Positions 27,165-37,137 of a stretch of DNA of 42,146 bases are shown here, piece after piece (position 1 is the first letter of the stretch; each line of letters opens with the position of its first letter). The position numbers and the translations under genes are program-made. The notes beneath the pieces were generated by a model. It was given only the letters and a program-made list of their open reading frames with translations. It had not been told where the DNA came from and made no database searches. The stretch comes from Candidatus Poseidonia sp. (lineage in GTDB: Archaea; Thermoplasmatota; Poseidoniia; Poseidoniales; Poseidoniaceae), in the NCBI GenBank assembly GCA_030827745.1, contig JAURDW010000011.1, forward strand, positions 1-42,146, given 5' to 3'.

Positions 27165-28157
27165 TCAAGCAAAGTATCGCGCTCGGAGTTTTCGCAGGCT
27201 GAGGCGGAGCGCAAACATCGCTTTGCGCCACGTTGACAAACGGACCGGTTGGCTGAAGACGTCGCCCGACCTTCGAACGATTTCGCTGAGAATTGAGGCG
27301 TATGCATCGGCCATGATTTCCGGCTGAACGCGTGCCCGAGCATCGAGGTAACCGAAAAGGAGGGACGCTGAGGATTGGTGGCGCTTGATGACCTCGAGGT
27401 ATTCGACCATGAAGCTGCGCCAAGCGAGGGATTGAGCGATGTTTTCCTGCTTGAGCATTTCCACCGAGATGTTGTGGGATTCCAGAACTTCTTCGGGCAG
27501 GTAGACGCGGCCCCGTTCCATGTCTTCGTTGATGTCCCGCAAGACGTTGATCAGTTGCATTTGGATGCCGAGGTCGATGGCGTGAAGTCGAGCAGCGCGG
27601 TCTTCGTATCCGTAAATTTCGATGAGGATGAGGCCGACGGCTGAGGCCACTTTGTAGCAATACGAGCGAAGTTCGTCCCAAGATTGGTTTTGAACCGGAT
27701 AGAGGTCGTCTTCCATGCCTTCCAGCACGGTTTCAAAATCGTTGAGTTTGATGGGATAGCGAGCGACAACATCCTGAAGGGCGATGAAAATCGGATGATC
27801 GTTGGCCGTGATGGTTTGCTCGTAGACTTGCCCCAACTTCATTCGAATCTCGGTCAGGGCCATCAGCCGTTGCCGGTGTTCTTCTGCCGGCAACACCGGC
27901 GTCTTTCCGACGTGAATCTCTTCCACGAGTGCTTGTCGTTGGTTGGTTGCGGCCTCCAGGAAGGGGGTGTGGTTGACGTTTGGCTCTTCGTCGCCGTCAA
28001 CGATATCGTCCACCCAACGGCACAAGGCGTAGACGGCGTGGACCGCCTTTCGCTTCTCGATTTGAAGGGCGCTAAAGGATGAGTAAAACGTCGTTGATGC
28101 CTCTCTGCAAACGGCCTCGCAATAGGCGTATGCGTTGTTGAGAAGCAAGGTCTTCAC
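27165..28157 (-). CDS. crtB: phytoene synthase
   Basis: A 330-aa squalene/phytoene synthase. The first Asp-rich site is RWVDDIVDGDEE and the second is NVLRDINEDMERGRVYLP. It condenses two geranylgeranyl diphosphates to phytoene, the entry step to carotenoids. Start GTG 28157 (MKTLLLNNAYAYCEAV): the Shine-Dalgarno GAGGGTGAT lies 3 nt upstream; the extra 38 residues of the track ORF overlap crtI. The gene sits 10 nt after crtI on the same strand, a crtI-crtB operon. Products likely feed C40 carotenoids or retinal; no lycopene cyclase, blh or rhodopsin is in this window. Confidence 0.95.
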   Translation of the reverse strand: MKTLLLNNAYAYCEAVCREASTTFYSSFSALQIEKRKAVHAVYALCRWVDDIVDGDEEPNVNHTPFLEAATNQRQALVEEIHVGKTPVLPAEEHRQRLMALTEIRMKLGQVYEQTITANDHPIFIALQDVVARYPIKLNDFETVLEGMEDDLYPVQNQSWDELRSYCYKVASAVGLILIEIYGYEDRAARLHAIDLGIQMQLINVLRDINEDMERGRVYLPEEVLESHNISVEMLKQENIAQSLAWRSFMVEYLEVIKRHQSSASLLFGYLDARARVQPEIMADAYASILSEIVRRSGDVFSQPVRLSTWRKAMFALRLSLRKLRARYFA

Positions 28158-28167
28158 GGTATCACCC

Positions 28168-29781
28168 TCAAGCAGATGTTGGTGTTCCGGTGGAAGGCTC
28201 TTTTGAGGTTTTGTTGAGCGCCGCACGGCCTTGCTTGCTTCGCTTCCTGCTCTCAAACCATGTGTCCACACCGTTCCAGTCGGGGATAATCCCCAAACTG
28301 TCCAACAAGAGTTTGCTGCTGATGCGGGCCGACTCGTAGATCACGGGAAGGCCACTGCCGGGGTGGGTGCCTCCACCGACGAGGTAGAGGTTGTTGATTT
28401 CGTCGAATTGATTCTTTGGACGTCGCCAAAGCATCTGGTCAAGGCCGTGAGCGAGGTTAAACACGGCTCCACGGTAGCAGTGGTCGCCCCAGTCTTCAGG
28501 GGTGATGACCATTTCAGTCACGATGTGGTCTTTGAGGTTCTCAAAGCCCAATTTGGCTTCGATCTGTTCCAAAATACGGTCGCGGTACGCGTCCTTTTCT
28601 TTGGACCAGTCAATGTTTTCGTGAACATGGGAAACGGGGACGAGTGCATACACGGTGGAACACCCTTCCGGAGCGAGGCTCGGGTCGGTCACCGAGGCGT
28701 TTTGGACGTACACTGAGGGGTCGTCCCACGTCAAACGGTGATGCTTCTCAATGTCCTCGAGGTTGTTCTCGTAGGTGGCTGAAGCGTAGATTTGGTGGTG
28801 AGGAAGTTCATCGTACGTTCGGTCAACGCCGAGGTAGAGCATGAAGGTTGAACAGGAGTATTTCTTGTTGTCCAGTTTCTTGTTGGACCACTTTTTGCGA
28901 ACCTTGTCGGGGAAAAGTTGTGTCATACCGTTGGCAAAGTCAGCGTTCATGACCACGCGGTCGGCCATAAATTCGCCTTTCGCTGTGCGCACACCGGTGA
29001 TGGTTTTCCCATCCATGATGACCGAATCAACCGCTTCGTTCATGCGAAAGGTCACGCCGAGGTCCCTGGCGATGGCCGCCATACGCTCGCTCACGCTTCC
29101 GAGACCACCGAGCGGGTGGAAGATACCGTACTCATATTCGAGGAAGGCCAACATCGTGAACAGGCTGGGGCAGTTGAAAGGCGACATGCCGAGGTATTTT
29201 GTCTGGAAGGACATCGCCAACATCAAACGGTCGTCGTCAAAGAGCTTCATCAGGTCCTTCGCCACGGAACGCTGAGGTCGCAGCACGCCAGCGACCCGCA
29301 TCGCTCGCTTCGAGAGCAAGTCCGATGGTCCGTACCAAGGTTCCTGGAGGCAGGCCTTGGATTTCGCCAATTTCATTCGGTTGTCCGTGACGTAGCGCTG
29401 GAAGGCCGTGGCGTTTCGGTCCCCAGACAACGTTCGGATGCGCTCGGTCATCTCATCGAGGTCACTGGTGCAGTCCAAACGGCCCCCTTTTCCGAAAATG
29501 AGTCGATAATTCAAGTCCAGTTTGTGAAGGTTGAGTTCTTCATGCGCATCCATGCCAATGGCTTTGAAGATGTCTTCAATGACTTCGGGGTAGTGAAAGA
29601 ACGTCGGACCGAGGTCAAATTTGAAACCATCCCGGTCGAACACTTTGTTCCTGCCACCGACTGCAGAAGACCGTTCAAAGACCGTCACATCAACGCCCGC
29701 CTTCGCAAGGAGAAGAGCAGAGGCGAGACCTCCGGGACCTGCTCCAATAATCGCAACGGAAGGCGTAGCGGTGGCTGACAT
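28168..29781 (-). CDS. crtI: phytoene desaturase (CrtI-type)
   Basis: A 537-aa FAD amine-oxidase-like desaturase. The N-terminal dinucleotide fold is AIIGAGPGGLASALLLAKAG with VFERSSAVGGRNKV. The C-terminal signature is LYLVGGGTHPGSGLPVIYES. It introduces double bonds into phytoene to give lycopene or a less desaturated product; the number of steps is not predictable. Start ATG 29781 is well supported by a TATA box (CCTTTATATGG) 27 nt upstream. A perfect inverted repeat between TATA and start suggests repression at this promoter. It is first in the crtI-crtB operon. Confidence 0.95.
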   Translation of the reverse strand: MSATATPSVAIIGAGPGGLASALLLAKAGVDVTVFERSSAVGGRNKVFDRDGFKFDLGPTFFHYPEVIEDIFKAIGMDAHEELNLHKLDLNYRLIFGKGGRLDCTSDLDEMTERIRTLSGDRNATAFQRYVTDNRMKLAKSKACLQEPWYGPSDLLSKRAMRVAGVLRPQRSVAKDLMKLFDDDRLMLAMSFQTKYLGMSPFNCPSLFTMLAFLEYEYGIFHPLGGLGSVSERMAAIARDLGVTFRMNEAVDSVIMDGKTITGVRTAKGEFMADRVVMNADFANGMTQLFPDKVRKKWSNKKLDNKKYSCSTFMLYLGVDRTYDELPHHQIYASATYENNLEDIEKHHRLTWDDPSVYVQNASVTDPSLAPEGCSTVYALVPVSHVHENIDWSKEKDAYRDRILEQIEAKLGFENLKDHIVTEMVITPEDWGDHCYRGAVFNLAHGLDQMLWRRPKNQFDEINNLYLVGGGTHPGSGLPVIYESARISSKLLLDSLGIIPDWNGVDTWFESRKRSKQGRAALNKTSKEPSTGTPTSA

Positions 29782-29786
29782 AACAT

Positions 29787-29803
29787 GACCACTTCGGGTG
29801 GTC
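29787..29803. promoter_or_regulatory. operator-like inverted repeat in the crtI promoter
   Basis: A perfect 6-bp dyad GACCAC-TTCGG-GTGGTC fills the space between the TATA box and the crtI start. A protein bound here would block polymerase recruitment or initiation. If the transcript began upstream it could also form a small hairpin. Confidence 0.5.
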
Positions 29804-29813
29804 CATATAAAGG
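29803..29813 (-). promoter_or_regulatory. TATA box of the crtI-crtB operon
   Basis: CCTTTATATGG on minus, centred 27 nt before ATG 29781; one of the strongest TATA boxes in the window. Confidence 0.75.
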
Positions 29814-29828
29814 CGGGTTTTTGTTCGT

Positions 29829-29845
29829 AAAAAAAACGCCAAAAA
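29829..29845 (-). terminator. T-rich archaeal terminator after the ABC1 kinase gene
   Basis: On the minus strand TTTTTGGCGTTTTTTTT (a T5 and a T8 run) begins 8 nt after the TAA of the ABC1 gene. Oligo-T tracts terminate archaeal RNA polymerase. It separates the ribA operon from the crtI promoter 16 nt further on. Confidence 0.65.
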
Positions 29846-29852
29846 TAACACT

Positions 29853-31091
29853 TTAAGCCGACGGATTGAGAATGGCGTGCGGGTCAATCAGCACCGAAAA
29901 TTCATCCAAATACGGGCCCATTGAACTGATCAAATCCACTTCAGGATGTCCTTTCAGGACCATGCCGTCCATGTACATGAGCGAGCGAATGATGGGAAAG
30001 GCTTCCTCGCCAAACGCACATCCTGCGAGAACCGCCGCCTTCACCGTCTTCATCATTTGCTCGGTTAACGAAACCTCACTCACCGACGTACCAACAAAAC
30101 CGTCGTAGAGTTCACCCATCGAGCGATAATAGGTCTCAAGGGTTGCCCCTGTAGGTTGGACAGCGGCCATGGTCAACATGGCGTCGAAAGCGTTCTTGAG
30201 TTCTCCTCTCGCCAGGAAATAGAAGAAACCAAACAGAGCGTTCCGCACATGTTCGGGTGCATGGCAGATGGCTCCAGTATCGATGAAGAAGAAGTTCCCG
30301 TTTTCGTCCATCATGGCGTTGCCGGGGTGCAGGTCCCCGTGAAAGGTTCCAAGACCAAACATGAAGGCTCCGTGGATGCGGAACAACTCGAGCATGTCCT
30401 CCCACGCCATGTTTCCACCTTCCAGGTGGTCTTCAAGGGTTGGCGAGGTAACTTCTTCCATGACGAGGACGCGTTGGTTGGAAATCTCCTCCCACATGAC
30501 GGGAAATTTGAGCTTGGGCATCGGGAAATGTTTCTCCACCTCGGCGGCTTTCGCCAAGAGATTGTTCCTGCCAACGATTTCGTTTGTGAGGTCAAGTTCC
30601 CGAAGGGTGTAATCCTCGATGTGGGCCAACAAGCCAATGGGGTTGCCGACCTTGCGAAGCCGTGGGTTGAAGAACAAGCCCAAGCGAATCCACCGTTTCA
30701 TTCGACGGACATCACGCCGGAACGAAGCCTCAAAATCGGCCTTGATGATCTTCACCACGACCTTCGTCCCGTCCTTGAGGACCGCACGGTGAATTTGACC
30801 GATGCTGGCCGCAGCAAACGGGGTTGTTTCGATGTGGGTAAAATGGTCGGTGAAGCCGGGGGGTGCGAACTTTGCAAGCAAAGCCTGTGAATCTTCTTCG
30901 GGAATCGTGGCGGCTCTGCTGTACAAGCGCTGAAGTTCAATGCAACGCTGCGGTTCGATGAGATCGGGTCGAAGAGCAAAAATTTGGCCGAGCTTGACCG
31001 CAAGCAGTCCCATGGACTGAATCCGCTCGATATCCACCGGTTTTTTGCCCTTCAATTGGCGAAAGAAGCGGATAAATGTCAACAGTTTCAT
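29853..31091 (-). CDS. ABC1/UbiB/AarF family atypical kinase
   Basis: A 412-aa ABC1-family protein. Family blocks: KLGQIFALRPDLI (KxGQ motif), AAASIGQIHRAVL (Ala-rich loop), VVVKI (VAIK-like Lys), FHGDLHPGNAMM (catalytic loop) and FFIDTGAI in the place of the metal-binding DFG. Family members are linked to isoprenoid quinone biosynthesis and, in plants, to plastoglobule and photo-oxidative stress responses; they are ATPases/kinases of uncertain substrate. The Phe of DFG is Thr here but Asp is kept. The gene lies 12 nt after the TrmB-like regulator with GAGGGTG overlapping its stop, so it is co-transcribed with it. A T-rich terminator follows before crtI. Confidence 0.92.
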   Translation of the reverse strand: MKLLTFIRFFRQLKGKKPVDIERIQSMGLLAVKLGQIFALRPDLIEPQRCIELQRLYSRAATIPEEDSQALLAKFAPPGFTDHFTHIETTPFAAASIGQIHRAVLKDGTKVVVKIIKADFEASFRRDVRRMKRWIRLGLFFNPRLRKVGNPIGLLAHIEDYTLRELDLTNEIVGRNNLLAKAAEVEKHFPMPKLKFPVMWEEISNQRVLVMEEVTSPTLEDHLEGGNMAWEDMLELFRIHGAFMFGLGTFHGDLHPGNAMMDENGNFFFIDTGAICHAPEHVRNALFGFFYFLARGELKNAFDAMLTMAAVQPTGATLETYYRSMGELYDGFVGTSVSEVSLTEQMMKTVKAAVLAGCAFGEEAFPIIRSLMYMDGMVLKGHPEVDLISSMGPYLDEFSVLIDPHAILNPSA

Positions 31092-31103
31092 GCATCAGCA
31101 CCC

Positions 31104-32504
31104 TCAGTCGCTCAGCTCAATGGTGTTCAATTCGTGGCGATGAATCAGGTAGTGCCAGAGGTCGTCTTTCGAGCCGCTTCCGTCAACCCGTTGGATGACC
31201 ACATTGGCGTCTTTGGCAAACCGATTGGAAAGGGCGCCTTCGATGATGCCGTCGTCCATCTGCCACATGGGGAGAGCGTCAGGGTCGTCCACCGGAGGAT
31301 GGTTCAAGCCGACGACGACGTGGAACTGCGGGTCAACATCGTATTGAAGCAAGCCCAAGCCAGCGTGCTCCCACCAGTCCATCATCTCGTCGAGGAACTC
31401 GATGTCATTTTCTATAGAGCGGAGGGAGAAGGCAATTTCTTGCCCAACACGGTTGCCGATTTGACGCAACATTCGGCCGATGTCAATGCCGAGGACTTTG
31501 AGGTTGGACAATTTTCCTTCGGTCAGGCGCATGCGGGCCTCATTGACCTCGTTGCCTGCCGCGAAGAACGCCTCAGGGTCAAACGGTGTGTCTTCGTCTG
31601 GCAGTTCTCCGTCAAAGCCGAGAGCCACGGAGACGTTCTTGAGAAACGAGCCTTCGCCGATGGTCAATCGAAGCGGGTCGTTGATCTGGTTTTCCGTGAA
31701 GCGGGCTCGGGCCGTGTCAAGCGAGACCGCTCCTTCCCAAATCGCGTCGATGAGGTGAAGGTGGGCTTGGGAAAAAGGTCCGGACTCAATGATGAGGGCC
31801 GCATCTTCTTTGCCTCGGCCAACGGGGTTGTCCTCGATGTTGAGGTATTGGATGACCTCTGACTGGTCCTGGACGAACCCGAGGGAATCCAATTCATCGG
31901 AGTGGCGAACTTCAATGCTCTTGTTCAACTGGTCAAAAAAGCGCAAGGTGCGGCCGTCGAGGTGGGTGATGACTTGCACCACAACGCCACGAACGGCGGC
32001 AGTGTTCACGGCTTCCAACGCCTCCGGGTTTCGGCACAGGTGGAGGATGCCGAATTGACCGAGAAGAAGAATGAGGCGTTCTTCGGCGTCGTTGGCCATT
32101 TTTTGCAGCCGGTTGTAGATGTGGTTGCGTTCCTTGAGCACGGCGAACCGAGGATCGTCGATGTCGCGCCGTTGCTTCTCGTAGGAGGCGTCGGTTTCCG
32201 TGATGCCTTTGGAAAGGTCTTCGAACCCTTCCACGAGGCGGTCAAGTTGCTGTTTTCTTGACTGAATGATGTGTTCCATGGCCTCGTTAATCCGCAGGCT
32301 GGAGAACAACATCGGTCGGTCCGCAGTGGCGGTGACGATGCCCATTTCTTGAAGTCGCGATAAGCTGTTGTAGGCGTCAAGACGCGTTGTGTTCAGTTCC
32401 TTAGCCAGTTCGGAGGCTTTCATCTTCGGGCGAGAACCGAGAATCATGATCGAGCGGACCTCACGTTCGTTCAAGCCCGCTTCCAAGAGCAATTCGTCCC
32501 ACAC
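31104..32504 (-). CDS. TrmB-like transcriptional regulator
   Basis: A 466-aa protein. The N-terminal winged HTH (GLNEREVRSIMILGSRPKMK, ELAKELNTTRLDAYNSLSRL, GIVTATADRP) fits the TrmB family. A coiled linker (residues about 75-115) follows, then a PLD-like effector domain (LILLLGQFGILHLCRN, VVVQVITHLDGRTLRFF) and a long C-terminal extension of about 200 residues without an assigned domain. Canonical TrmB is about 340 aa and senses sugars. Start GTG 32504 abuts the peroxiredoxin TGA with no gap, so translation is probably coupled. Its position between ribA-bcp and the ABC1/crt genes makes it a candidate regulator of this block, possibly through the crtI dyad (inference). Confidence 0.82.
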   Translation of the reverse strand: MWDELLLEAGLNEREVRSIMILGSRPKMKASELAKELNTTRLDAYNSLSRLQEMGIVTATADRPMLFSSLRINEAMEHIIQSRKQQLDRLVEGFEDLSKGITETDASYEKQRRDIDDPRFAVLKERNHIYNRLQKMANDAEERLILLLGQFGILHLCRNPEALEAVNTAAVRGVVVQVITHLDGRTLRFFDQLNKSIEVRHSDELDSLGFVQDQSEVIQYLNIEDNPVGRGKEDAALIIESGPFSQAHLHLIDAIWEGAVSLDTARARFTENQINDPLRLTIGEGSFLKNVSVALGFDGELPDEDTPFDPEAFFAAGNEVNEARMRLTEGKLSNLKVLGIDIGRMLRQIGNRVGQEIAFSLRSIENDIEFLDEMMDWWEHAGLGLLQYDVDPQFHVVVGLNHPPVDDPDALPMWQMDDGIIEGALSNRFAKDANVVIQRVDGSGSKDDLWHYLIHRHELNTIELSD

Positions 32505-32972
32505 TCACGCGTCCCCCGTGACTTTGGAAATGTCGGCTAAGATTTTGGCAACGTGGCGTCGTGGACGGAAGAGCCAGTCGTAGATGTAACGGATGGTGTC
32601 GTCAGGTCCGATGAGGAAGGAGGATTTTGCCGGGAATTGGCCCACGTGAAGGGGGACATTGAAGCGCTTTCCAACTTCGCGCTCGGGGTCGGCAAGCAGG
32701 GGGAACGGGAGGTCGCCCAATTCGGCCTTGAACGAGGCCAACCCCTCAACCGAACCAGGGCCGATGCCCACAATGGAACAACCGGCCGAGGCAAACAAAT
32801 CGTGTTGCTCTTTGAAGGTCAAGCATCCCCGCTTGCATGTTGGGGAGTTGTGCCTGGAGTAGAAGAAAACAATGCGCCAAGTACCGTTCAGCGATTCGCT
32901 GTCAAAAGTCGTTCCTTGGTCGTCTTCGAGGAGAAAATTTGGCGCTTTTTGGCCCACGAGCGTTGCTTTCAT
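32505..32972 (-). CDS. bcp: peroxiredoxin, Bcp/PrxQ type
   Basis: A 155-aa thioredoxin-fold peroxidase: VGQKAPNFLLEDDQG start, then the active site SPTCKRGCLTFKEQHDLF. C46 would be peroxidatic and C50 resolving, spaced C-x3-C rather than the usual C-x4-C of Bcp. IVGIGPGSVEGLASFKAE and the C-terminal Arg-containing segment match AhpC/TSA. It reduces hydrogen peroxide and lipid hydroperoxides in the cytosol using thioredoxin-like donors. Start ATG 32972; the long track ORF upstream is antisense/other-frame ribA. It lies 10 nt after ribA and abuts the TrmB-like gene. Confidence 0.92.
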   Translation of the reverse strand: MKATLVGQKAPNFLLEDDQGTTFDSESLNGTWRIVFFYSRHNSPTCKRGCLTFKEQHDLFASAGCSIVGIGPGSVEGLASFKAELGDLPFPLLADPEREVGKRFNVPLHVGQFPAKSSFLIGPDDTIRYIYDWLFRPRRHVAKILADISKVTGDA

Positions 32973-32982
32973 CTTGGCGGCC

Positions 32983-33594
32983 TCAGAAGGGGAGAATGTG
33001 GCCCATTCGTGCCGCTTTCGTGGAAAGATAGGAACGGTTGTGGGCGCACTGCCCGACGATGATGGGGACGCGATTGACGACGTTGATGCCGTTGTCGAGC
33101 AACTGCTGTCGCTTGTCCGGGTTGTTGGTTGCCAACTCGATGTCCGTAACGCCCATGGCGTACAGCATTTCGGCGGCGAAGTCGTACCGGCGAGCATCAG
33201 CCGGGAGGCCGAGGGCGAGGTTGGCATCCAGCGTGTCGTACCCCTCGTCCTGGAGGGCATAGGCTTGCATCTTGGCGTACAAACCGATGCCTCGGCCTTC
33301 TTGTCGCATGTAGACCACAGCACCGTGACCCGCCTCTTGAATCGCTTTCATGGAGGCTTCGAGTTGGGGTCCGCAATCGCATCGCTGGGATCCAAACGCA
33401 TCTCCGGTCAGGCATTCCGAGTGAATTCGAACCAAGGGGGTGCCCTCGGAGAGTTCTCCAACATAGAGCACGCAGTGCTCCTGAAGGCTGCTGGGGTCAC
33501 GGAAGGCACGGATTTTGAATTCACCGTGCTTGGTGGGCAGAAGGGCTTCCGCTTCAGGCTGGAGTGTCTTTGATGGATGTGGCGTCCCGAGCAT
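32983..33594 (-). CDS. ribA: GTP cyclohydrolase II
   Basis: A 203-aa stand-alone GTP cyclohydrolase II. Zinc ligands are C61, C72 and C74 in SECLTGDAFGSQRCDCGPQLE, followed by the catalytic RQEGRGIGL segment and ATNNPDKRQQL. It converts GTP to 2,5-diamino-6-ribosylamino-pyrimidinone phosphate, the first step of riboflavin/FAD synthesis. It is the bacterial-type enzyme; most archaea use GTP cyclohydrolase III, so this is noteworthy. Start ATG 33594 is well supported by TTTTATATAC centred about 26 nt upstream. It is the first gene of the ribA-bcp-trmB-ABC1 operon and divergent from the photolyase operon, whose enzyme needs FAD. Confidence 0.95.
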   Translation of the reverse strand: MLGTPHPSKTLQPEAEALLPTKHGEFKIRAFRDPSSLQEHCVLYVGELSEGTPLVRIHSECLTGDAFGSQRCDCGPQLEASMKAIQEAGHGAVVYMRQEGRGIGLYAKMQAYALQDEGYDTLDANLALGLPADARRYDFAAEMLYAMGVTDIELATNNPDKRQQLLDNGINVVNRVPIIVGQCAHNRSYLSTKAARMGHILPF

Positions 33595-33615
33595 GTTAGA
33601 AAATCTGTTCAATTT

Positions 33616-33625
33616 GTATATAAAA
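33616..33625 (-). promoter_or_regulatory. TATA box of the ribA-bcp-trmB-ABC1 operon
   Basis: TTTTATATAC on minus, centred about 26 nt before ATG 33594. Confidence 0.75.
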
Positions 33626-33660
33626 CATCGTCTTTTTCCTCTACTGGGACGAAACCGTTC

Positions 33661-33671
33661 TTCATATACGG
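33661..33671 (+). promoter_or_regulatory. TATA box of the Nudix-photolyase-SDR operon
   Basis: TTCATATACGG, centred 26 nt before ATG 33692. It is 36 bp from the divergent ribA TATA box. Confidence 0.75.
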
Positions 33672-33691
33672 TATGCGACAGATGAAGGGCA

Positions 33692-34186
33692 ATGGCCCAT
33701 CTGCTGTGTGACCTTGGCGTTGCCGCTCGTGTTGTACGAGAAGGCAAGGTCTTGCTGGTCCAAGAAGCCAACGGGCGGCACCGTGGCCGGTGGGGGTTGC
33801 CAAAGGGTCACGTTGAGGCCAACGAAAGTCCAGAAGCCGCTGCCGTTCGGGAACTTGATGAGGAAACGGGGCTGAGTGGGACCGTCGTCGGTCTTGCCGG
33901 CGTTCGCACGGCGTTGCGCAAGGACGGGCCCGCAGTTTTCCTTTGCTACGAGGTCGAAGCCAACCACGGAACACTTCGAGGTGACGCAGATGAAATCTCC
34001 TCGGTTGCTTGGTTCTCTCTCAACGAACTCACAACCGTTGAATGGGTCTCTGAAACGATGCATCAACTCGCCATCGACGGCCTCACGCAGCATGCCGTTA
34101 CCCTTCATCAAGACGGCTTGACGCCACGGAGCGGTCCTTACGCCGTCTACCGGTCGGGCCACACCAGACAACGGGAGCATCGGTGA
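33692..34186 (+). CDS. Nudix hydrolase
   Basis: A 164-aa Nudix protein. The Nudix box G39-L61 (GHVEANESPEAAAVRELDEETGL) matches G-x5-E-x7-REUxEExGU. It hydrolyses a nucleoside diphosphate linked to another moiety; the closest general resemblance is to Ap4A or oxidised-nucleotide type enzymes, but the substrate cannot be told. Start ATG 33692 is preceded by TTCATATACGG centred 26 nt upstream, a strong leaderless promoter. It heads an operon with photolyase (start codons at or near its stop) and the SDR fusion. Nucleotide-pool cleaning would fit a UV/oxidative setting (inference). Confidence 0.93.
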   Translation: MAHLLCDLGVAARVVREGKVLLVQEANGRHRGRWGLPKGHVEANESPEAAAVRELDEETGLSGTVVGLAGVRTALRKDGPAVFLCYEVEANHGTLRGDADEISSVAWFSLNELTTVEWVSETMHQLAIDGLTQHAVTLHQDGLTPRSGPYAVYRSGHTRQREHR

Positions 34187-34191
34187 GCACC

Positions 34192-35736
34192 ATGATCCCA
34201 TCCACCCGGCTTCAAATTCACGGCGAGCCAAACCCTGATGGCGATGTGGTCGTTTACTGGATGACGGCTGCCAGGCGACCGCACTGGAACCATGCTCTCG
34301 ATCATGCCATCAACCTCGCCCGGGACCATGATCTCCCGCTCTTGGTTGTGGAGTGTTTGGCTCTTCAACACCGATGGGCGAACGACCGCATCTCAACCTT
34401 CGTGCTTCAAGGAATGATAGACAACCGCGACAGTTTCAGCAACTCGGGCGTCACCTATGTCCCCTACGTTGAAACCAAACGCAAAGAGGCCTCTGGGCTA
34501 CTCAAAGGCTGGCTCCAGCGGGCTCGTGCATGCGTGATCGATGATTACCCAACGTATTACCCCAAGCACGTGCTGAACACGGCGATCGCCGTTAAGCCGT
34601 GTGAGGTCCACGTGGTCGATTCCAACGGTTTCATGGCCATGCGGGCACAAGGCCGAGATTTCTCAACGGCTTACTCGCTGCGGCGACACCTCCACAAGAC
34701 CATTCGGGAACACATGCATGAGTTTCCCGAGGCGAAACCCCTTCGGTCAACGGGAGACTTGCCCGCTCTTCCTCCAGAAATTGTCCAAGCTGTGTTTTCC
34801 GAAACCAACACGCCACCGACCCCCTACGAGTTTTTGTGGAGGGTCGCCGAAGGCGGCGATGTCGGGAGGGTTGCCCTTTCAACGCTGAGCATCGACCATG
34901 AGGTCGAACCCGTCATTGGAAAACGGGGTGGCCACCTCGAGGGTCGTCGTCGCTGGAAAGAATTCTTTTCCAGTCGCCTTGCGGCATACCACGAAATGCG
35001 AAACCACCCTCAAGAGCGAGGAGCGAGCGGGCTCTCGCCTTGGTTGCATTTTGGCCACATCAGCGTCCACGCCATCCTTCACGACCTCTTCACCCACCAT
35101 CAATGGGATGTCAGCCTCGTCAACCCGCCCAACGACGGGCGCCGAAACGGATGGTGGGGACTTCCCGAACCGGTGGAGGCCTTCCTCGATCAAATCATCA
35201 CCTGGCGGGACATCGGTTTCATCCACTGTGCCATGATCGAGAATCACACGGCATACGAATCTCTTCCTCAATGGGCGCAAACGACCCTCGCCGAACATGC
35301 TGCTGACGACCGCCCCTACCTGTATTCGTTTGAGGAATTGGAATCCGCCAGAACGCATGACCCGCTGTGGAACGCAGCACAAAACCAACTTCGGCAGGAG
35401 GGCATCATCCACAATTACCTCCGAATGCTCTGGGGGAAGAAAATTCTCGAGTGGTCGCCCTCGCCCCAAGTTGCGATGGAATGGATGATTGCGTTGAACG
35501 ACCGGTGGGCATTGGACGGCCGCGACCCCAACTCGTACACGGGCATCGGCTGGGTGTTAGGGAAGTTTGACCGCGGCTGGACCGAACGTGCGGTTTACGG
35601 CAAAATCCGTTGCATGACCAGCGCATCAACCGCTCGCAAGTTCAAAACCAAAGCCTACGTTGAAAGGTACAACGGCGATGCTCGTCAATCCACGCTGCTG
35701 GGTTCGGGCCCGGGGTTCTATTCCACCCATCAATGA
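34192..35736 (+). CDS. phr: class II CPD deoxyribodipyrimidine photolyase
   Basis: A 514-aa class II photolyase. The N-terminal antenna domain has VVVYWMTAARRPHWNHALDH (YWM...R..WN). The FAD domain has ERGASGLSPWLHFGHIS, LRMLWGKKILEWSPSP and the C-terminal class II signature DPNSYTGIGWVLGKFDRGW followed by VYGKIRCM. It repairs UV cyclobutane pyrimidine dimers with blue light, using FAD and, in many archaea, 8-HDF. The start could be GTG 34183 (4-nt overlap with the Nudix stop) or ATG 34192; I favour 34192 because GGTGA lies 5 nt upstream. Confidence 0.95.
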   Translation: MIPSTRLQIHGEPNPDGDVVVYWMTAARRPHWNHALDHAINLARDHDLPLLVVECLALQHRWANDRISTFVLQGMIDNRDSFSNSGVTYVPYVETKRKEASGLLKGWLQRARACVIDDYPTYYPKHVLNTAIAVKPCEVHVVDSNGFMAMRAQGRDFSTAYSLRRHLHKTIREHMHEFPEAKPLRSTGDLPALPPEIVQAVFSETNTPPTPYEFLWRVAEGGDVGRVALSTLSIDHEVEPVIGKRGGHLEGRRRWKEFFSSRLAAYHEMRNHPQERGASGLSPWLHFGHISVHAILHDLFTHHQWDVSLVNPPNDGRRNGWWGLPEPVEAFLDQIITWRDIGFIHCAMIENHTAYESLPQWAQTTLAEHAADDRPYLYSFEELESARTHDPLWNAAQNQLRQEGIIHNYLRMLWGKKILEWSPSPQVAMEWMIALNDRWALDGRDPNSYTGIGWVLGKFDRGWTERAVYGKIRCMTSASTARKFKTKAYVERYNGDARQSTLLGSGPGFYSTHQ

Positions 35737-35745
35737 GGTTTCGCC

Positions 35746-37137
35746 ATGCCCGTTTACCAACACACCGCCCGTTTTGAGGTCCCCGTTGAGGACCTTTGGG
35801 CATGGTACGACAGCCCGGGGGCGTTCCGACGTATCATGCCGGAATGGGAAGGGATTCAACCGGTTGAAGCCGGGGCCCTCGTGGACGACGCTCGCACCCG
35901 TTTTCGCATTCGCCTTGGCCCTCTGCGACCCATGTGGGTGGCCCGTCACCACGGCGTCAAGCCGGGCGAAGTGTTCAACGATGTTATGGAAAAAGGACCC
36001 TTTGGTGCGTGGGACCACGAGCACCGTTTCAAGCCAATTGACGCTTCGTCAAGCGAACTTTGCGACTCCGTCCAGTGGCGTTTGCCCTTTCATCCGCTGA
36101 CGTTTTGGACCGCGCCTTTCACTGTAAAAGGGCGTCTGAACCAAATGTTTGCCTACCGCACAGACCGCGTGCAAAGCGACTTACGTCGCATCAAGGCCTT
36201 TGCCCATCTGCCGCGTCAGAAGGTTTTGGTGAGCGGTTCAACGGGCCTCATCGGCCTGCAGTTGTGCGCCTTCTTGGCTGCTGCTGGCCATTCGGTCACC
36301 CGCTTGGTCCGGCCTTCAACCGTTTTGCCAGACGATGCCAAAAACGACGACGTGGTCGTGTGGAACGACCGCACCGGTGAGGTTCTGGAAGGTGATTTGA
36401 ACGGGTTTGACACCGTGATTCACCTCGCTGGTGCTGGCATCGGGGACAAGCGCTGGAACGCCAAACGCAAAGACCTCATCGTCAGCAGTCGAACCGTTCC
36501 GACCGCACATCTTGCACAATCTTTAGCCTCCCTTGAGCAGCCACCGGGTGCCTTCCTTTGCGGGTCTGCCATCGGCTATTACGGCAACCGAGGGGATGAG
36601 GCGCTGAGCGAATCCTCATCTCCCGGAGAGAACTTCTTGGCGGAAACCTGCGTGGCCTGGGAAGCGGCAGCCCAGCCTGCTGTCGATGCAGGCATCCGAA
36701 CCGTCTTCCTTCGAACAGGCATCGTCACCACGCCGATGGGCGGTGCCCTTCAGAAACTGCTGCTGCCCACCAAACTCGGCGGTGGCGGGCCTGCTGGAGG
36801 GGGAAAACAGTACTATTCGTGGATTTCCCTTGCGGACCAGATTTACGCCACGCATCACCTGATGATGACGTCATCGTGCGACGGTGTGTACAACCTCACC
36901 GCTCCTTCGCCTGTGACGCAAAAAACATACGCAAAAACGCTGGGACGGGTGCTGCGACGTCCTGCTTTTGCCCCTGCACCCGGTTTCGCCCTACGTCTGT
37001 TGCTGGGGGAAATGGCCCAAGCTTTGGTGCTGGACGGCCAACGGGTTTTGCCCAACCGTTTGTTGGAAAGTGGCTACATCTTCGAACACGAAGAGCTCGA
37101 AACCTGTCTTCGGCAATGCCTCGGCCGCCAGAAATGA
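35746..37137 (+). CDS. SRPBCC (START-like) domain fused to TIGR01777/SDR39U1 NAD(P)-binding protein
   Basis: A 463-aa two-domain protein. Residues about 1-150 look like a ligand-binding SRPBCC domain (YQHTARFEVPVEDLWAWYDS, FGAWDHEHRFKPID). Residues about 160-463 are an atypical short-chain dehydrogenase of the YfcH/SDR39U1 group: LVSGSTGLIGLQLCAFLAAA (Rossmann Gly motif), VIHLAGAGIGDKRW, GSAIGYYGNRGDEALSE and a WISLADQI C-terminal block. Homologues are linked to photosystem or cell-division phenotypes but without a known substrate. It follows photolyase by 9 nt with a TGAGG Shine-Dalgarno, so it is in the same operon. Ligand and reaction are unknown. Confidence 0.9.
   Translation: MPVYQHTARFEVPVEDLWAWYDSPGAFRRIMPEWEGIQPVEAGALVDDARTRFRIRLGPLRPMWVARHHGVKPGEVFNDVMEKGPFGAWDHEHRFKPIDASSSELCDSVQWRLPFHPLTFWTAPFTVKGRLNQMFAYRTDRVQSDLRRIKAFAHLPRQKVLVSGSTGLIGLQLCAFLAAAGHSVTRLVRPSTVLPDDAKNDDVVVWNDRTGEVLEGDLNGFDTVIHLAGAGIGDKRWNAKRKDLIVSSRTVPTAHLAQSLASLEQPPGAFLCGSAIGYYGNRGDEALSESSSPGENFLAETCVAWEAAAQPAVDAGIRTVFLRTGIVTTPMGGALQKLLLPTKLGGGGPAGGGKQYYSWISLADQIYATHHLMMTSSCDGVYNLTAPSPVTQKTYAKTLGRVLRRPAFAPAPGFALRLLLGEMAQALVLDGQRVLPNRLLESGYIFEHEELETCLRQCLGRQK

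Follow-up and report, generated by a model that had tools for sequence, protein, structure and literature searches.

A conserved nine-gene block with a shared promoter element and a TrmB-family candidate regulator: probable core of a light-linked regulon in Ca. Poseidoniales

Do the nine neighboring genes for carotenoid synthesis, flavin supply, peroxide removal and photolyase found in a Candidatus Poseidonia contig belong together in function, and if so, by what might they be controlled? In surface seawater the Ca. Poseidoniales rank among the most abundant archaea; no member is in culture (PMC6461757, PMC9723583). The sequence analyzed, referred to as the window, is a whole stretch of 42,146 nt (contig C20 of the genome designated G000, which is 1.74 Mb and 81.5% complete). 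A sequence-only reading of it had proposed that nine genes at 27165-37137 act jointly in light and reactive oxygen species (ROS) defense. The genes themselves and their order were borne out: all nine ORFs (9/9) are present and match the named families.

27165..28157, minus strand: crtB, phytoene/squalene synthase family (PF00494, SQS_PSY, 215 bits); order kept in relatives
28168..29781, minus strand: crtI, phytoene desaturase family (TIGR02734, 492 bits; cut-off 238)
29853..31091, minus strand: ABC1/UbiB-type atypical kinase (PF03109, 129 bits)
31104..32504, minus strand: TrmB-family regulator with a winged HTH, a PLD-like middle and a C-terminal domain with weak similarity to that of MsvR (PF01978; NF053755; fold model)
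32505..32972, minus strand: bcp, AhpC/TSA peroxiredoxin (PF00578, 87 bits; start read from the sequence)
32983..33594, minus strand: ribA, a block-specific second GTP cyclohydrolase II (TIGR00505, above cut-off; start read from the sequence)
33692..34186, plus strand: Nudix hydrolase (PF00293, 84 bits)
34183..35736, plus strand: phr2, class II-type CPD photolyase (TIGR00591; best PDB matches 8oet and 2xry)
35746..37137, plus strand: SDR39U1 with an SRPBCC-like N-terminal extension (TIGR01777, 302 bits, above cut-off; PF08338, DUF1731)

Some of these assignments are approximate. The crtB ORF is open to 28271, with a probable start near 28157; among curated family models it scores higher with HpnD than with the CrtB models, all below cut-off, and it may be a presqualene diphosphate synthase instead. 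The phr2 product scores 345 bits with TIGR00591, below the curated cut-off of 550; its top PDB matches are 8oet, 2xry and their relatives (E ≤ 1e-65). These nearest solved relatives are class II CPD photolyases. A phr2 match interrupted by one in-frame stop codon occurs in G010, G012, G041, G093, G100, G106, G115, G119, G123, G129, and G144. The N-terminal extension of SDR39U1 has no Pfam match, and the name SRPBCC is that of the sequence-only reading.

Comparison of gene order in relatives, suggested earlier as a check, shows that it holds across the Poseidoniaceae, with a core in the Thalassarchaeaceae. A set of 79 crtI loci was compared; of those from Poseidoniaceae that are long enough to judge, nearly all keep SDR39U1-phr2-Nudix facing ribA-bcp-trmB-ABC1-crtI-crtB, down to ~50-60% protein identity, while the genes outside the block (a TSP3 protein, a lipoprotein, glycosyltransferases) vary. 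In the Thalassarchaeaceae a ribA-bcp-trmB-ABC1 / phr2-SDR39U1 core persists, often with crtI-crtB a few kb away. There are exceptions: locus L070 has no detected Nudix gene; crtI is ~75 kb from the block in G002; and in some genomes of genus g13 phr2 is gone and a rhodopsin gene lies directly before ribA, with bcp and trmB behind this rhodopsin-ribA pair in G042 and G140.

The genes also tend to be present or absent together. In a presence table for 146 genomes, from which paralogue-level matches were removed by hand, all seven markers (trmB, phr2, rhodopsin, crtI, ABC1, SDR39U1, and a second ribA) are found in 77 genomes and none in 24, and agreement exceeds that in within-genus shuffles for every pair. 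Because physical linkage and incomplete genomes inflate the agreement of neighbors, the unlinked rhodopsin weighs most here: its presence agrees with that of trmB in 129/146 genomes, against 106 +/- 4 in the shuffles. In the 33 genomes with a completeness of 90% or more, all markers are present in 18 and none in 9; the trmB-rhodopsin pair gives p = 7e-6, a nominal value since the genomes are not independent. Most lineages that lost rhodopsin and photolyase have lost the block too. RibA itself is present in 144/146 genomes; block-bearing genomes mostly have a second copy, in the block, and block-less ones usually have one. The ribA of the window is not the only copy in the cell. Five genomes keep crtI, ABC1, and SDR39U1 alone (pattern “---CAS-”), without phr2, trmB, or rhodopsin. 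There are therefore probably two sub-modules, and this distribution suggests that the carotenoid one is separable from the rest of the block.

The remark that each unit has a strong TATA box was correct, and can be sharpened: the leading gene of each unit carries an element of the form AAAC-N5-TTNATA or a variant of it, its box ~30 bases ahead of the start codon. The sequences preceding ribA, Nudix, and crtI in relatives have this element in common. In the window, the box lies 30-31 bases 5' of the start codon:

29806..29820, minus strand: promoter element of crtI-crtB, AAACCCGCCTTTATA; box to ATG 30 bases
33652..33666, plus strand: promoter element of Nudix-phr2-SDR39U1, AAACCGTTCTTCATA; box to ATG 31 bases
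33619..33633, minus strand: variant promoter element of ribA-bcp-trmB-ABC1, AGACGATGTTTTATA; box to ATG 30 bases

The ribA variant reads AGAC-N5-TTTATA in the window, and the exact AAAC form is found at the same place in other genera. Two copies of the exact pattern, AAACNNNNNTTNATA, are present in the 42 kb (at the crtI and Nudix promoters only) against 0.04 expected, and none of 100 shuffles of the window had two.

At the corresponding loci in relatives, the exact element precedes crtI in 39/75 cases, ABC1 in 25/68, Nudix in 23/55, and ribA in 17/65; ABC1 has its own element-bearing promoter in other genera. A relaxed form, of a kind devised after inspection of the same sequences, is found before ribA at 59/65 loci. 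SDR39U1 has the exact element at 1/63 loci and a relaxed one at 7/63, and the exact element was found before none of bcp, trmB, crtB, phr2, or four flanking genes. Reversed-pattern controls at the block genes are near zero. Genome-wide, the bare 15-base pattern is uninformative (eight copies in G000, against five of the reversed control), and position relative to the ATG is the only thing that separates the signal from background. When an ATG is required at the expected spacing, the element has 274 sites and its reversed control 124 in 44 genomes (43 with a TrmB orthologue, plus G014, which has the rest of the block but in which no TrmB orthologue was found), and 44 against 68 in 24 block-negative genomes; element counts differ between block-bearing and block-negative genomes with p = 2e-6 (Mann-Whitney). 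The possibility that this is simply the general promoter of the group was considered and is unsupported, since generic promoters of G002 do not have the element: of 314 ORFs in 400 kb, 14 have a box spaced as for a leaderless transcript, but AAAC at the defined spacing precedes none, and AAAC is not enriched in 172 upstream regions of the same genome.

The element is not confined to the block. In relatives it also precedes genes for rhodopsin, a Nei-type glycosylase, RudS, DUF2237, and MsrA, and families recurring behind it across genera include a 76-aa membrane protein, an MMPL-like exporter (a name assigned by eye), RudS (TudS-DUF1722), a PKD protein, an Fpg/Nei-type glycosylase, SurE, a cupredoxin, a CoA-binding protein, and an ABC ATPase; as only chosen sites were fetched, the counts of such targets are not frequencies. 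SurE, MMPL, and PKD proteins have no obvious role in light. Rhodopsin was considered as an always-controlled target, and qualifies only in part: the exact element is at 2/17 sampled promoters, and a looser variant at 9/17. The second rhodopsin-family gene of G000 (C26:12826-13536) has no promoter element.

The 76-aa membrane protein (G000:C23:15521-15787; also at L164, L209-L212, and L225) has no Pfam match and is present in 113/146 genomes; its gene is often behind the element, and adjoins SDR39U1 or crtI in several genomes. At its promoter, 12 of 20 block-positive genomes carry the relaxed element, compared with 3 of 20 block-negative ones (p = 0.008); for the exact element the figures are 8/20 and 3/20 (p = 0.16). 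These were chosen genomes, examined motif-blind except for G018, G025, G037, and G045-like cases, which had been partly seen before.

With gene order kept across an order, a common element, and joint loss, the block therefore looks like one light-linked regulon. Of the joint light/ROS function originally proposed, the behavior of the genes as one unit stands, in order, in joint presence and loss, and in the element at unit leaders; what changes is the membership, which is wider than nine genes and probably falls into the two sub-modules. Common control of the block is likely from these comparisons, and so is a connection to light, which has outside support: in MGIIb-O1, a genus related to that of the window, 24 h of dark incubation lowered transcripts for phytoene desaturase (crtI/crtD), uvrA, uvrC, and cofH (Damashek et al., PMC9723583), and every proteorhodopsin-bearing genus has a photolyase, deep genera having lost phototrophy (Rinke et al., PMC6461757). 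We put at roughly 0.6 the probability that Ca. Poseidoniales have a light-linked regulon, photo-oxidative and phototrophic, with this block at its core and the TrmB-family protein as its most likely reader. Against this stand the proteorhodopsin transcripts, which did not change in the same dark incubation (PMC9723583), the scarcity of the exact element at rhodopsin promoters, and the predicted targets that have no obvious role in light.

The block may be aimed at defense, at phototrophy (retinal or carotenoid supply for rhodopsin), or at both. That it serves mainly phototrophy rather than stress defense, providing rhodopsin with carotenoid or retinal and with membrane support while photolyase and peroxiredoxin play an accessory part, is compatible with a regulon but somewhat unlikely. 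It would account for the co-occurrence of rhodopsin with the block, its position beside ribA in one genus, and the element at some of its promoters. It fits less well with the 12 genomes in which phr2 occurs and no rhodopsin was detected, every one of which has trmB, with the five that hold crtI, ABC1, and SDR39U1 and no rhodopsin, or with the repair genes (Nei, RudS, MsrA) among predicted targets.

At the protein level, the TrmB-family assignment combines a winged HTH, found in 27/27 orthologues (PF01978, 33 bits against a cut-off of 25.6), with a PLD-like middle matched by Foldseek to TrmBL2 (5bpd, E 4e-13), TrmB, and PLD proteins, from a fold model of moderate confidence (pLDDT 79, pTM 0.49). 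Within the phylum as sampled, only Poseidoniales gave matches to the full-length architecture. A paralogue with ~35% identity is found outside the block in G002 (C1:1294681-1296012) and in ~25 other genomes. A V4R domain is absent from the best 25 of 33 Pfam families (E ≤ 0.5) matched by the 27 orthologues. The methanogen redox regulator MsvR is weakly similar over residues 335-439, but the score (NF053755, 30.3 bits) is far below the family cut-off of 220, and no cysteine is invariant or nearly so among the 27 orthologues. This argues against a thiol redox switch, and redox sensing through cysteines was ruled out on this ground. The Thermococcales proteins TrmB, TrmBL1, and TrmBL2 share the winged HTH and PLD-like domain and are the best PDB fold matches, but lack the extra C-terminal domain of the block protein and have a different DNA element and targets.

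That this candidate reads the element is a reasonable inference. In the scheme this would imply, there are three predicted transcripts, Nudix-phr2-SDR39U1, ribA-bcp-trmB-ABC1, and crtI-crtB, led by promoters that share AAAC-N5-TTNATA, in which roughly one turn of the helix separates AAAC from the strong TATA-like box that follows it; the spacing from box to start codon suggests leaderless transcripts. The TrmB-family protein would most likely bind at AAAC, activate the set when light or photo-oxidants are present, and control its own operon. For TrmB-like factors of the Thermococcales, a site upstream of TATA/BRE goes with activation, and by analogy the placement of AAAC suggests activation here as well. 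Judging by family functions, the products would provide flavin for CPD repair, nucleotide sanitation, peroxide removal, and carotenoid for protection or retinal.

The regulon could also be real and the element be read by another factor, such as an alternative TFB or an unlinked regulator, with TrmB otherwise employed in its operon. The AAAC part is close to BRE/TATA at a fixed spacing, the logo has no dyad, and the element persists in some genomes without TrmB: G018, G079, and G082 have no TrmB orthologue yet keep it at the 76-aa-gene promoter, and G121 keeps several; these genomes count against TrmB as reader. On the other hand, the block encodes no DNA-binding regulator other than TrmB, which stays in it in both families, and most block-negative lineages have lost the element. 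The pattern of retention fits TrmB as reader with recent losses, and fits another reader too; taken with the rest, a different reader seems fairly unlikely. Lastly, the order might reflect linkage handed down by descent, with no common control. The genes lie on one contig, and the loss of that contig from an assembly would remove them together in genomes mostly 75-95% complete; but the unlinked rhodopsin shows the same pattern even at 90% completeness and above, the flanks change while the block stays, and the element marks unit leaders, so that this is very improbable.

Returning to the light-linked regulon with TrmB as candidate reader, such sets of repair and carotenoid genes are of a kind known from bacteria; literature searches turned up no archaeal counterpart with a TrmB-type candidate and this element. 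RudS genes frequently share light-responsive operons with genes for photolyase or carotenoids, and under class II LitR/CarH (MerR family, adenosyl-B12) bacteria place photolyase, carotenoid genes, and RudS under one light-linked regulator (PMC11417400). The candidate here differs in being archaeal and TrmB-family, with a TATA-linked element and no B12 domain; Pfam and curated family scans found neither a MerR nor a B12 domain among the nine block proteins. The blue-light response of Vibrio cholerae, through sigma-E/ChrR and MerR, also includes photolyase-containing operons, induced there by blue light and ROS (PMC5241685). It differs in using a bacterial sigma factor and anti-sigma factor. To our knowledge, archaeal transcription has no sigma factors. 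The distribution of photolyase and proteorhodopsin in Poseidoniales has already been reported (PMC6461757); in the literature searches, no mention was met of the conserved block, of the second ribA, of the TrmB gene, or of the promoter element, nor of any promoter-level regulatory circuit for Ca. Poseidoniales.

A broader proposal, tentative and falling a little short of even odds, is that a TrmB-type regulator and AAAC-N5-TTNATA constitute an archaeal light/photo-oxidative circuit joining photolyase, carotenoid, a dedicated flavin supply, RudS, Nei, and rhodopsin, with a regulator of a different kind from LitR/CarH and sigma-E/ChrR, and repeatedly discarded along with rhodopsin. If so, archaea would have met the problem addressed by those systems with another kind of regulator. 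The element and its candidate reader yield a concrete gene list that can be checked in existing day/night metatranscriptomes, and single DNA sites for binding assays.

Other genes are found in or near the block in some relatives. Behind ABC1 in G002 (L122:2827-6533) are a flavin amine oxidase gene and a photolyase-related PF04244 (DPRP) gene, with an Fpg/Nei-type glycosylase gene beside them. In genus g3, a DUF1295 gene (PF06966, scanned for L073) lies between trmB and ABC1 (L073:7816-8631, and L125:10426-11244, which looks alike). Small membrane proteins are encoded near crtI/crtB at L113, L114, L088, L119, L125, L115, and L079; the L113 protein is a match to ABA4-like (PF14108), which in plants is a carotenoid-linked family; the other six look alike.
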